Source: Alphaproteobacteria bacterium SO-S41 (GTDB lineage: Bacteria; Pseudomonadota; Alphaproteobacteria; Micropepsales; Micropepsaceae). From it: DNA of 64,000 nt. The translations under genes were made by a program, and so were the position numbers. The notes beneath the pieces were generated by a model. That model had not been told where the DNA came from and made no database searches. It worked only from the letters and a program-made list of their open reading frames with translations. The stretch's first letter is position 1. Every line of letters starts with the position of its first letter. The stretch lies in assembly GCA_019670725.1 (NCBI GenBank), contig AP024629.1, positions 2,914,001 through 2,978,000 of the forward strand. The letters are read 5' to 3'. This document shows, piece by piece, positions 10,178-39,912 of this stretch.

Positions 10178-10305
10178 CTTGGTCTCCCTTGGCCGGACAG
10201 CCCGGCCTGCTGGAGACCTAGATGGGGGATTGCGTTCGGATAAGAAAGTGAAACAATAGAAACAGATCGTTTCCGGATTAACCCCTATGGGCAACACCGC
10301 TACCC

Positions 10306-10411
10306 GTCATGGTGAGGTGCGGAGCGCGGCACGCGCGTAGCCTCGAACCACGCACGCTAATGCAGCTTGCGTCCTTCGAGACGGGCGCTGACGCGCCCTC
10401 CTCAGGATGAC
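10306..10411. repeat. Family B intergenic palindrome
   Basis: Opens GTCATGGTGAGGTGCGGAGC and closes CCTCCTCAGGATGAC, with CTCGAACCACGCACG and TGCGTCCTTCGAGACG inside as paired arms. Other copies are at 14537-14641, 38518-38623, 38652-38702 (half) and 39066-39172. It occupies the divergent pirin/LysR gap, close to where the promoters must lie. Confidence 0.9.
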
Positions 10412-10458
10412 GGACGGGGGTTGAATCCCGATCGCCCAAACAGCTCAGCCGGTTCACC

Positions 10459-14442: not shown

Positions 14443-14482
14443 ACAGGGGTGAATTGGCTCCTCGCCCGCTCACCCTCCCCTT

Positions 14483-14702
14483 GTCATGGTCCGCGAAGGC
14501 GGACCATCCACGGCTTTGAGACGAACCCCCCCCCTCGTCATCCTGAGGAGCGGTCGAAGCCCGCGTCTCGAAGGACGCAGGCTGCGTCAGTGTGCGTGGT
14601 TCGAGGCTCCGCGCGTGCCGCGCTGCGCACCTCACCATGACGAACAGGTGGTAATGCCCTGGCAAAGAAAGCCGCGGATGGTCCGCCTTCGCGGACCATG
14701 AC
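14483..14702. repeat. Family A palindrome interrupted by a family B element
   Basis: The outer arms GTCATGGTCCGCGAAGGCGG and CCGCCTTCGCGGACCATGAC match the uninterrupted copy at 17833-17919, including the loop flanks CCACGGCTTTG and CAAAGAAAG-like sequence. A complete family B element (14537-14641) lies in the loop. The region between the DUF3297 and GST genes holds nothing else. Confidence 0.88.
14537..14641. repeat. Family B palindrome nested inside a family A copy
   Basis: Inverse orientation relative to the other family B copies: GTCATCCTGAGGAGCGGTCG at the left and CGCACCTCACCATGAC at the right. GACGAAC occurs at 14520-14526 and again at 14639-14645, a possible short target duplication, although the right copy overlaps the element's own terminal GAC. 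Confidence 0.88.
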
Positions 14703-14731
14703 AGCCTATAGGGAAGCGGCCTGACCCCGCT

Positions 14732-17818: not shown

Positions 17819-17832
17819 GCGCGCCCCTAAGT

Positions 17833-17919
17833 GTCATGGTCCGCGAAGGCGGACCATCCACGGCTTTGCGTTGGTCGGCGAAAGAAAGTCGTAGATGGTC
17901 CGCCTGCGCGGACCATGAC
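17833..17919. repeat. Family A palindrome, GGTCCGC-stem variant (uninterrupted copy)
   Basis: GTCATGGTCCGCGAAGGCGG at the left and CCGCCTGCGCGGACCATGAC at the right. It is the intact equivalent of the interrupted copy at 14483-14702. It lies between convergent operons and may help terminate both. Confidence 0.9.
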
Positions 17920-17931
17920 AGCGGGTGGGGG

Positions 17932-38284: not shown

Positions 38285-38336
38285 GCGCGCGACCCGTGCT
38301 GCAGCGCGACAAATCTGCCACGACGAGGCCGCGCGT

Positions 38337-38487
38337 GAATCCTGTTCACCAGCAAAACCCGCTGAGACGGCGATTCAGGAAGCCGCGTTTCGCGAGTCGA
38401 TTCAGCATCTTGCGCGCCACTTCTGCGGGATCGATTCACGCCGCAGGGTGAATCCCGGAAAGCACGGACGGTCAGCGCCGGTGAATC
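38337..38487. promoter_or_regulatory. Cluster of seven GANTC sites, six of them TGAATC
   Basis: GANTC occurs at 38337, 38372, 38394, 38399, 38433, 38450 and 38483, within 151 bp. Six are the hexamer TGAATC or its complement. GANTC is the CcrM methylation site in alphaproteobacteria and should occur about once in 256 bp by chance. No gene covers this stretch, which lies upstream of the porin Pho box. Confidence 0.7.
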
Positions 38488-38517
38488 CCCGAAGACGCAC
38501 TTCAGCCATCTTTACCC

Positions 38518-38623
38518 GTCATGGTGAGATGCGCAGCGCCGCAGGCGCGGAGCCTCGAACCACGCACCCTGCGGCAGCGTGCGTCCTTCGAGACGCGGCC
38601 CCAGGGCCGCTCCTCAGGATGAC
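38518..38623. repeat. Family B intergenic palindrome
   Basis: GTCATGGTGAGATGCGCAGC at the left and GCTCCTCAGGATGAC at the right, with the inner arms CTCGAACCACGCACC and GCGTCCTTCGAGACGCG. Same orientation as 10306-10411 and 39066-39172. Confidence 0.9.
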
Positions 38624-38651
38624 GAACATTAGGTCACAACCCACCCTCCCC

Positions 38652-38702
38652 GTCATGGTGAGGTGCGGAGCGCGGCACGCGCGCAGCCTCGAACCACGCA
38701 CG
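38652..38702. repeat. Half copy of a family B palindrome next to the GIY-YIG gene
   Basis: Only the left half is present, from GTCATGGTGAGGTGCGGAGC to CTCGAACCACGCACG. It stops 3 bases before the stop codon of the GIY-YIG gene at 38706. The right half is missing at this spot. Confidence 0.85.
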
Positions 38703-38705
38703 ATA

Positions 38706-39005
38706 TCAGGGTCGGCGGGGCTTCCGGCGCGCCAGACCCGGCAGGGCACCCCAATCCCGCCGGATAAGTGCCTCTTTCTTGGCCCGGCTCCAGCGCTTGA
38801 TCTGCCGCTCGAAATCATGGGCGTCGCGGATATCTGGAAAATCCTCTTGGAATACTAGCGTCACGGGCTGCCGGAGAGACGTGTAGCCGCCAAAGGCGCC
38901 GGTATTGTGCTGACCGGTGCGGACGTCCGGGTCGTCGCTGGTCGACCCGACATAGTAGCTGCCGTCTGCACAGCGCAGAATGTAGACCCACCCGCCCTTG
39001 CTCAT
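38706..39005 (-). CDS. Small GIY-YIG domain nuclease
   Basis: Protein of 99 residues consisting of a lone GIY-YIG domain. WVYILRCADGSYYVGSTSD (about 6-24) carries the two signature strands in the form VYI and YVG; RTGQHNTGAFGGYTSLRQPV follows with the conserved Arg/His region, and the catalytic Glu is probably in HDFERQIKRWSRAKKEAL (about 66-83). The ATG at 39005 has GGAGG 6 bases upstream. Related stand-alone proteins (YhbQ type) act on branched or damaged DNA. The gene is bracketed by family B repeats on both sides, a hint that it moves with them. Confidence 0.9.
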   Translation of the reverse strand: MSKGGWVYILRCADGSYYVGSTSDDPDVRTGQHNTGAFGGYTSLRQPVTLVFQEDFPDIRDAHDFERQIKRWSRAKKEALIRRDWGALPGLARRKPRRP

Positions 39006-39065
39006 CGAACGCCTCCGGTCGGCGCAAGGTGATCCTCCCACCCCGATCCGACAACCACCCTCCCC

Positions 39066-39172
39066 GTCATGGTGAGGTGCGCAGCGCCGCAGGCGCGGAG
39101 CCTCGAACCACGCACCCTGATGCAGCCTGCGTCCTTCGAGACGCGGCCTAAAGGGCCGCTCCTCAGGATGAC
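39066..39172. repeat. Family B intergenic palindrome upstream of the GIY-YIG gene
   Basis: GTCATGGTGAGGTGCGCAGC at the left and GCTCCTCAGGATGAC at the right. With the half copy at 38652-38702 it flanks the nuclease gene in direct orientation. The remaining 143 bp before the PadR gene must hold the promoter of the RND operon; no clear hexamers are visible. Confidence 0.9.
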
Positions 39173-39315
39173 GGGAGGGTAAAGTTTTGCGACCCCCCCA
39201 CTCCCTCCAATCCCGCACAATCCCTGAACCTGTTGTTCACGCGTCACTGGTCTTCATTGCAGTGCGGTGATATCCCGCCGCCATCATATCGAACTGTTAT
39301 ATCGGGCGCCTTTAG

Positions 39316-39912
39316 ATGATCGACGTGAGAATGCTCTGCCTGGGCGCACTGATGGGGCGCGAGGCGAGCGGCTACGACATCAAGAAGGAGCTGGAGCGCG
39401 GTTCCTCCGCCGGGCTGATCGACGCCAGTTTCGGCTCGATCTACCCCGCCCTCGCCCGCCTCGCCGAGGAAGGCTTCATCGCGGCGCGCAGCGAAGGCGG
39501 CCGTGGCCGGGGCGACAAGAAGCTCTACACCCTCACCCCCGACGGCGAGGCTTTCTTCCTGCGCACCCTCTCCGGCCCGGTGCCCGACGAGAAATACCGC
39601 TCGCCCTTCCTCTTCGCGATGCTCTTCACCTCGTGCCTGCCGCGCGAGCGCGTGCGGGCGATGATCGACCGCCAGATCGCCGCCTGGGAAGACAAGCTGG
39701 CCGCGGTCGATGAAACCTCGGCGGCCATGCCGCCCAGCGCGGGGCTCAACTTCGTCCGCGGTTTCGCGGATGTGACCCTCAGGGCCGGGCTCGATCACCT
39801 CAGGCGTCACCGCGCCGCACTTGAAGCGGCGGCCAAGGTGTCGGATACGCCCGCCCCCGTTCGTCCTCTGACCGAAGCCGTCCCAACCGAACCCGCCGTC
39901 GCGGCGGAGTGA
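39316..39912 (+). CDS. PadR family transcriptional regulator
   Basis: DNA-binding regulator of 198 residues. The N-terminal winged helix is typical of PadR: MLCLGALMGREASGYDIKKE (about 6-25), then FGSIYPALARLAEEGFI (about 39-55) and LYTLTPDGEAFF (about 70-81). A Vir-type C-terminal helical domain follows (about 90-165). It heads the RND efflux operon with 7 bp to the adaptor gene, and probably represses it until a phenolic or drug-like ligand binds. Confidence 0.92.
   Translation: MIDVRMLCLGALMGREASGYDIKKELERGSSAGLIDASFGSIYPALARLAEEGFIAARSEGGRGRGDKKLYTLTPDGEAFFLRTLSGPVPDEKYRSPFLFAMLFTSCLPRERVRAMIDRQIAAWEDKLAAVDETSAAMPPSAGLNFVRGFADVTLRAGLDHLRRHRAALEAAAKVSDTPAPVRPLTEAVPTEPAVAAE

Follow-up and report, generated by a model that had tools for sequence, protein, structure and literature searches.

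Does a small nuclease gene that lies among copies of an interspersed palindrome belong to these repeats, and could its product be the enzyme that spreads them? This question is raised by a stretch of 64,000 nucleotides (nt) from Alphaproteobacteria bacterium SO-S41 (GenBank: GCA_019670725.1, contig AP024629.1, positions 2,914,001 to 2,978,000 of the forward strand; hereafter the window, to which all plain coordinates refer), where a lone gene for a GIY-YIG nuclease is placed between copies of a palindrome family termed B. The linkage between lone GIY-YIG genes and palindromes proved to be genuine and specific, and it is widespread among Proteobacteria and Bacteroidota. In the reading that we consider likely, CGTC-type palindromes have their cognate enzymes in these nucleases, and the gene together with its half-palindromes is a mobile unit of very small size.

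Lone GIY-YIG genes of the genome and their palindromes

The nuclease gene of the window (38706..39005, minus strand) encodes a single-domain protein of 99 amino acids (aa), which matches PF01541 with 62.1 bits (6.4e-17) and belongs to clade ii of the lone GIY-YIG genes described below. A half palindrome of family B (CGTCAT - hairpin - CCACGCAC; 38649..38702, plus strand; solo half G000:C1:2952652-2952696) ends 3 bases short of the stop codon (38706-38708). Full palindromes, each consisting of two inverted halves, are found at 38515..38624 (plus strand) and, upstream of the gene, at 39063..39173 (plus strand). Layout and coordinates thereby confirm the original prediction, which had placed the gene between a half and a full family-B copy, with a further full copy nearby. 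The two halves of a full copy are unequal (CGTCATGG-hairpin-ACCACG and CGTCATCC-hairpin-AGGACG), and the copy at 39063..39173 folds as single-stranded DNA with -31.3 kcal/mol (z -3.9). A search of Rfam over 38300-39400 revealed no match.

A strict pattern detected 80 family-B halves, forming 50 elements, in the 4.44-Mb genome, and the reversed-pattern control detected none. Five of the 80 halves are located within 200 bp of the window gene. When intervals of 300 bp were placed at random, only 8 of 200,000 had a family-B element within 100 bp on each side, so that the arrangement in the window is far beyond chance. Family-B arms were paired with their own partner at 5.86 of 7 positions, compared to a mean of 4.99 and a maximum of 5.34 for arms dealt among the copies (1000 shuffles; 35 distinct halves, one type), which indicates that the hairpin is maintained though its letters vary.

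The genome, assembled as one contig, contains four PF01541 matches, one being UvrC and three being lone genes, among them that of the window. Each of the lone genes has a different palindrome family (B, A and C) on both sides; UvrC is not bracketed in this way. The second lone gene (L002) lies between two family-A copies (TGTCATGCCCGCGAAGGCGGGCATCCA and an inverted partner) and the third (L003) between two family-C copies (CGTCATCCCGG...CCGGGACCCAG). The nearest B half is 13.7 kb and 42 kb away from these other two genes, so family B is not a general GIY-YIG partner. An expectation that lone GIY-YIG genes would be found close to family B therefore fails in this genome, where each gene has a family of its own. 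Terminators were rejected as an explanation of the palindromes, because families A, B and C each have at least about 40 genome copies, nearly all of them distant from any GIY-YIG gene. Five further lone GIY-YIG genes are present in two of four same-genus relatives, and with approximate flanks an inverted repeat was seen to span the gene in three of these cases.

Palindromes at lone GIY-YIG genes of the family and of other groups

The survey was based on 47 genomes of the window's family. Flanks of up to 6 kb were fetched for 71 lone and 11 UvrC genes, and flanks of up to 1.5 kb for 48 more lone genes; together with the window gene and 18 short loci this amounted to 149 genes. Sorting by motif gave clade i (NGTLY, 79 genes), clade ii (SYYVG, that of the window gene, 12), clade iii (TYVGWT, 28), clade iv (19) and UvrC (11).

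In the first set, genome-repeated sequence within 150 bp amounted to 30.5% for clade i, 31.6% for clade ii, 7.6% for clade iii, 18.8% for clade iv and 0 for UvrC, the last value (0/11) being a partly unfair comparison, as some genomes were sampled at the UvrC locus alone. Fair controls were provided by neighbouring open reading frames (ORFs) and by the distal bins of these loci. The same repeat coverage was 3-4% at a distance of 2-6 kb from the genes of clades i and ii. Spanning inverted repeats (score of at least 18) were detected at 32/44 clade-i, 4/8 clade-ii, 1/9 clade-iii, 1/10 clade-iv and 0/11 UvrC genes, compared to 18/795 random intervals; one of 45 clade-i genes and two of 80 loci of other groups were left out of this test for their short flanks. 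Counted strictly outside the ORF, they remained at 27/44 clade-i and 2/8 clade-ii genes and were present at 3/367 neighbouring ORFs.

A strict finder placed a CGTC-type half within 120 bp upstream of 44/76 clade-i genes (37 with the tag outward) and downstream of 37/76 (29 outward), with halves on both sides and tags outward in 21/76. Clade-i units composed of half, gene and inverted half measure 352-473 bp (median 385), with median distances of 20 bp from half to gene start and 15 bp from the stop to the other half. The same finder detected halves upstream of 2/28 and downstream of 2/28 clade-iii genes, upstream of 1/18 clade-iv genes and at 0/11 UvrC genes. Clade iii showed repeats nearby on either side in 2/9 genes. 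The repeat coverage of clade iv (HTSK...YLKS.SGRAFAK; e.g. L124, L126, L135, L143, L196) is intermediate, with repeats on either side in 5/10 genes. The protein ends frequently extend into the adjoining repeat. C-termini of clade ii (L176, L159, L139, L193, L145) are apparently encoded by the adjoining palindrome, e.g. RHPEVRAQRASKDD and RPSTSSG, so that the repeat alters the protein tail.

Among relatives from named genomes (the best 80 of at least 437), loci of other families and phyla revealed spanning inverted repeats in 51/78 cases, compared to 11/385 controls. By group, these were 21/29 in Alphaproteobacteria, 27/36 in Bacteroidota, 3/4 in other Proteobacteria, 0/3 in Chloroflexota and 0/6 in other phyla. 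Outside the family the halves commonly follow a TGAG-hairpin-TCGA theme, and GTCACTTCGAGTG...GTATCGAGAA was found in Flavobacteria (24 loci viewed). A literal GTCAT...ATGAC finder was too narrow for the loci of other groups, because clade ii outside the family carries TGAG...TCGA-type halves.

A comparison with 12 records of a plasmid collection showed clade-i genes directly flanked by CGTC-type palindromes in Azospirillum, Sinorhizobium, Rhizobium CIAT894, Sphingobium, Aeromonas, Novosphingobium and N. gonorrhoeae. The Planktothrix clade-i gene is accompanied by GTCATTCTGAG-type repeats. Such palindromes lie only downstream in Rhizobium tumorigenes and Photobacterium (~180 and ~150 bp, respectively), Methylobacterium has a palindrome of the clade-ii type, and Sphingomonas parapaucimobilis has one, only upstream.

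Cognate pairing and copy number

The pairing of proteins and palindromes was compared for 53 clade i and ii genes of 15 genomes, using pairs from different genomes without shared neighbours and flanks strictly outside the ORF; L195, located at a contig end, was excluded from the first of these tests. With a palindrome counted as shared at a score of at least 25, the fraction of non-syntenic pairs sharing it, which are not phylogenetically independent, was 62/68 at protein scores of at least 350, 51/155 at 300-350, 58/393 at 250-300 and 33/644 below 250. From the palindrome alone the correct partner was chosen in 122.5/157 cases (protein score of at least 330), compared to a mean of 37.7 and a maximum of 77 in 500 permutations. 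When mapped onto a tree of the proteins of 88 genes (32 genomes), the palindrome type changed 15 times, with a minimum of 7 possible and a mean of 47.2 after shuffling, and none of 200 shuffles was as low; the labels were hand-made stem patterns available for 73/88 genes, and 42/85 inner branches of the tree were unresolved.

Ten of 150 listed X halves (13 genomes) are found within 150 bp of a clade-i gene, with 0.026 expected; this count was obtained by matching by eye in G005-G017, with 27/30 of the G017 halves listed. X halves are commoner in the 16 genomes with a clade-X gene than in the 31 without (p 1.5e-5), and B halves are commoner in the 11 genomes with clade ii than in the 36 without (p 8e-4), two genes having been reassigned to clade ii by hand for this comparison. 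Thirteen genomes have no clade i or ii gene among the matches listed, which falls short of proof of absence, and nine of these contain neither the X nor the B pattern.

Occupied and empty sites

The porin and PadR neighbours of the window's site are kept in all four same-genus relatives. Between porin and PadR, tblastn revealed no GIY-YIG match in these four genomes, and the same interval contained no family-B pattern and no similarity above background. An empty site with one intact family-B copy, as the original prediction had proposed, was not found, since all four relatives are without gene and copy. In Azospirillum lipoferum 4B, a unit is located between sufB and sufC, and three relatives (~94% identity) have neither gene nor palindrome there. 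In the fnrL/response regulator interval of eight Sphingobium plasmids, four hold half - gene - half, two hold one gene-less hairpin and two hold nothing. The gene-less hairpin stands at the exact place of the half - gene - half arrangement and is comparable to the empty state predicted for the window. One of the Sphingobium gene copies is frameshifted. A target duplication was not readable at the window, Azospirillum or Sphingobium sites. The alignment of the window's intergenic region with relatives was too diverged for placing junctions or such a duplication. The neighbourhoods in Rhizobium CIAT894 and R. tumorigenes provided no clean empty site among the matches listed.

Comparative analysis of the sequences demonstrates linkage, cognate specificity, the same pairing at non-homologous sites, presence and absence at orthologous sites, and the conservation of catalytic residues. 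Gene and palindromes very probably form a cognate, co-mobile unit. The idea that a GIY-YIG nuclease is tied to a mobile palindrome without a tyrosine transposase is thus borne out, and it generalises beyond the window, with cognate pairing, a lack of Y1 transposase matches in the SO-S41 genome and empty sites in relatives on its side.

Relation to known repeat systems

CGTC-tagged repetitive extragenic palindromic (REP) sequences were surveyed by Di Nocera, De Gregorio and Rocco (2013, PMC3733652). They are described there by a CGTC or TGTC tag, a stem of 8-9 bp starting with AT, a loop of 4-5 nt and a CCA tail, and they form head-to-head dimers. They are dispersed, mostly in Alphaproteobacteria, with S. 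meliloti and A. lipoferum named as carriers; dRS3 of Neisseria equals CGTC-1 and has almost 700 copies in meningococcus (PMC3733652, PMC3898611). The survey considers these REPs 'apparently' without a dedicated transposase and closes with the question of which enzyme, if any, moves them. It also mentions REP-decorated excinuclease ABC complex proteins, and GIY-YIG genes at times bear this label, so that the proteins in question may be of the GIY-YIG type.

Family A fits this description in tag, stem, loop, tail and dimers (TGTC-ATGCCCGC-GAAG-GCGGGCAT-CCA and an inverted partner) and is here paired with GIY-YIG genes. Family B departs from the definition of stem, loop and tail in the text of the survey: the CGTC tag and the inverted pairing are present, but the stem is longer (TGAGG...CCTCGA) and ACG takes the place of CCA, so that family B is related to CGTC REPs in layout. 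ATTCCC(N8)GGGAAT units directly flank the clade-i gene of the gonococcus (L257) and are dRS3 by the pattern in PMC3898611, where the passages on the dRS3 and NIME repeats of Neisseria treat these as sites of phage integration and recombination and not as partners of nuclease genes. The repeats around lone GIY-YIG genes resemble, or are, CGTC-tagged REPs.

The arrangement is also similar to that of REP doublets forming hairpins (REPINs) and REP-associated tyrosine transposases (RAYTs; Bertels and Rainey 2011, PMC3116915): both have a hairpin-forming inverted REP pair, many non-autonomous copies, a cognate enzyme gene near the same repeats and several families per genome. Family B has the features of a REPIN, being a multi-copy inverted REP doublet that folds into a hairpin. 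In contrast to the REPIN-RAYT system, the enzyme here is of the GIY-YIG type (PF01541) instead of an HUH tyrosine transposase, the tag is CGTC instead of GTAG, and the unit measures ~0.4 kb. A Y1 gene flanked by REPs, as in a RAYT or REPtron, was not found, the flanked gene being PF01541. In the open literature, covered by titles and the starts of abstracts, with preprints and most subscription papers outside its range, no paper tying GIY-YIG genes to such repeats was found, and PMC2267715 and PMC6006769 do not contain the term 'GIY'.

The enzyme and its possible mode of action

The window protein has the domain and the Tyr, Tyr, Arg and Glu residues that define the GIY-YIG superfamily. An alignment of 31 of 40 proposed rows showed Y8, Y18, G20, R29 and H33 to be invariant and E66 nearly so; Y8, Y18, R29 and E66 are the catalytic residues. 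An AlphaFold2 model based on 24 rows (predicted local distance difference test score 89.8) displayed a bare GIY-YIG fold with C-terminal helices. Its best matches in the PDB were the UPF0213 structures 1zg2 and 1ywl, for which the entries assign no function, followed weakly by Slx1, a branched-DNA nuclease; no repeat partner is attached to the UPF0213 and Slx1 entries, which have the fold in common with the window protein. In NCBIfam and PHROGs, clade i matched homing endonucleases of group I introns and phages, though weakly, and the window gene had no match.

The bare fold and the weak kinship with Slx1 led us to propose that the nuclease cuts hairpins or cruciforms and that copying proceeds through the arms. 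Each small, single-domain GIY-YIG nuclease would be specific for a single family of hairpins with the CGTC tag (CGTCAT - hairpin - short tail). In DNA that is single-stranded or supercoiled, the palindrome would fold into a hairpin or cruciform, and the nuclease would cut this structure at its base. Matching half-palindrome arms would then serve to repair the break or to copy through it, so that one half, two paired halves or half - gene - half could be copied to a new place. The autonomous form would consist of half-palindrome, gene and inverted half-palindrome (~0.4 kb), and gene-less palindromes would be its non-autonomous copies, as REPINs are relative to RAYTs, with an unrelated enzyme. 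Cutting, hairpin preference, the repair step and the driving of gene-less copies by the nuclease are what we infer here; that the nuclease spreads the gene-less palindromes as well seems probable.

Several observations weigh against this proposal. Movement, cutting or target duplication was not observed in any case, and GIY-YIG chemistry is hydrolytic, with no strand transfer known to us. The copies at the window gene all point in one direction and do not form a clean inverted pair. Clade ii had only 2/8 spanning repeats strictly outside the ORF (p 0.05 by rank), and the strict half finder detected no half at its 12 genes, whose stems begin later. Two of the five lone genes in same-genus relatives are without a spanning inverted repeat, as are, by the threshold used, 27/78 loci of other groups, including all three of Chloroflexota and all six of other deep phyla. 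B counts are also higher with clade X (p 0.001), which suggests that repeat-rich genomes are rich in several families. Six of the 11 clade-ii genomes hold 0-1 B halves, and three genomes without clade ii hold 10-23. In G012, 28 X halves were counted, and no clade i or ii gene is among the matches listed. The X family of G012 has possibly outlived its enzyme.

Alternative explanations

Free-standing GIY-YIG homing endonucleases include I-TevI and T4 Seg. The system described here is similar to them in its spreading GIY-YIG gene and a proposed cut-and-copy mode, but its putative targets are hairpin repeats of high copy number, which stand beside the gene as well, and the 99-aa window protein has no separate DNA-binding domain. 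The nuclease might thus act in homing only, cutting palindromes and copying its own gene into their centre via the half-palindrome arms, while gene-less copies spread otherwise. The location of the gene between half-palindromes, the two Sphingobium plasmids with a gene-less hairpin where four others hold half - gene - half, the weak matches of clade i to homing endonucleases and the palindromes of genomes such as G012 are all consistent with this. Against it, palindrome copy number is higher where the cognate gene is present, and the relatives at the Azospirillum and window sites lack the palindrome together with the gene. A link of the palindromes to any other enzyme is not known; Y1 transposases show no association with them, and PMC3733652 reports just fortuitous associations with other transposases. 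We therefore regard homing only as unlikely, though it is the explanation to be weighed most seriously beside a nuclease that moves gene and palindromes alike.

A domesticated host function, in which a repair or structure-specific nuclease acts on palindromes (removal of cruciforms, regulation) and is regulated by the flanking repeats, could draw on the weak sequence and fold kinship with Slx1 and on the retained catalytic residues. It is quite improbable given the patchy presence of the genes with up to 9 GIY-YIG matches per genome, their absence at the orthologous site in the four same-genus relatives, and decayed copies with stops or frameshifts.

Passive co-location would mean that palindromes and small dispensable genes gather in permissive intergenic DNA, and the palindromes are indeed intergenic and locally clustered. 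This is hardly credible, as spanning inverted repeats occur in just 3/367 neighbouring ORFs and in none of 11 UvrC genes and as cognate pairing recurs at non-syntenic sites and on the protein tree. Chance or permissive DNA was rejected by the random-placement, control and neighbouring-ORF counts.

The least credible explanation is mobilisation by RAYT-type (HUH, Y1) transposases as for GTAG REPs, with the GIY-YIG gene as a passenger: in layout, CGTC REPs are similar to those of the GTAG type, and genes for tyrosine transposases occur in some of the species that bear CGTC repeats (PMC3733652), but that survey found none of these genes between such repeats, X and B halves are not more numerous in the 14/47 genomes with Y1_Tnp (one-sided p 0.97), PF01797 has no match in the palindrome-rich genomes G024, G026, G035, G036 and G037, and RAYT mobilisation in the SO-S41 genome is largely refuted by 0 PF01797 matches.

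Significance

The lone GIY-YIG nuclease is, to date, the strongest candidate for the missing enzyme behind the spread of CGTC REPs, a very common class of bacterial repeats, and a cognate 99-residue gene beside each of several families makes the enzyme question of 2013 directly testable. In its widest form, for which we see an even chance, the proposal states that lone GIY-YIG nucleases are a second, HUH-independent class of REP-mobilising enzymes, with an autonomous element of ~0.4 kb bearing two hairpin halves and acting by hairpin nicking, without known transposase or recombinase chemistry, and that they account for CGTC REPs including dRS3 and for related Bacteroidota palindromes. If true, the origin of the CGTC REPs of Proteobacteria, including dRS3 of Neisseria, and that of the TGAG...TCGA-type palindromes in Bacteroidota would be explained, REP-type elements would have arisen with two unrelated enzymes, and bacterial GIY-YIG nucleases would acquire a transposition-like role. 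Reannotation would then be due for genes that now bear the label 'hypothetical' or 'excinuclease ABC subunit C'. To our knowledge, an element of ~0.4 kb would perhaps be the smallest protein-encoding autonomous mobile element.

Further observations

Two more family-B copies in the window are without a gene. One is located at 10303..10412 (plus strand; G000:C1:2924303-2924412), the other at 14536..14642 (minus strand), nested centrally in a different CGTC-type palindrome (14482-14703), of which a version without the insert is found at 17832-17920. The nested copy had been noticed before at about 14537-14641 and is indeed present. The family of the host palindrome (TGTCATGGTCCGC...) is a further CGTC-type family with 17 strict matches in the genome; none of the three lone GIY-YIG genes is its own.

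Around the second lone GIY-YIG gene (G000:C1:2342011-2345798, L163 region), 3.8 kb of DNA hold four palindromes of family A, a local cluster which resembles that of family B at the window gene. In the plasmid collection, the records of L257, L258 and L275 (2.2, 3.7 and 4.9 Mb) resemble chromosomes filed as plasmids. On plasmid p1 of Planktothrix agardhii (L276), the clade-i gene and its adjoining repeats are located between a gene for an MmeI-type restriction enzyme and the DISARM gene drmA. L273 and its relatives are short lone GIY-YIG proteins, some of which are annotated as 'excinuclease ABC subunit C'.
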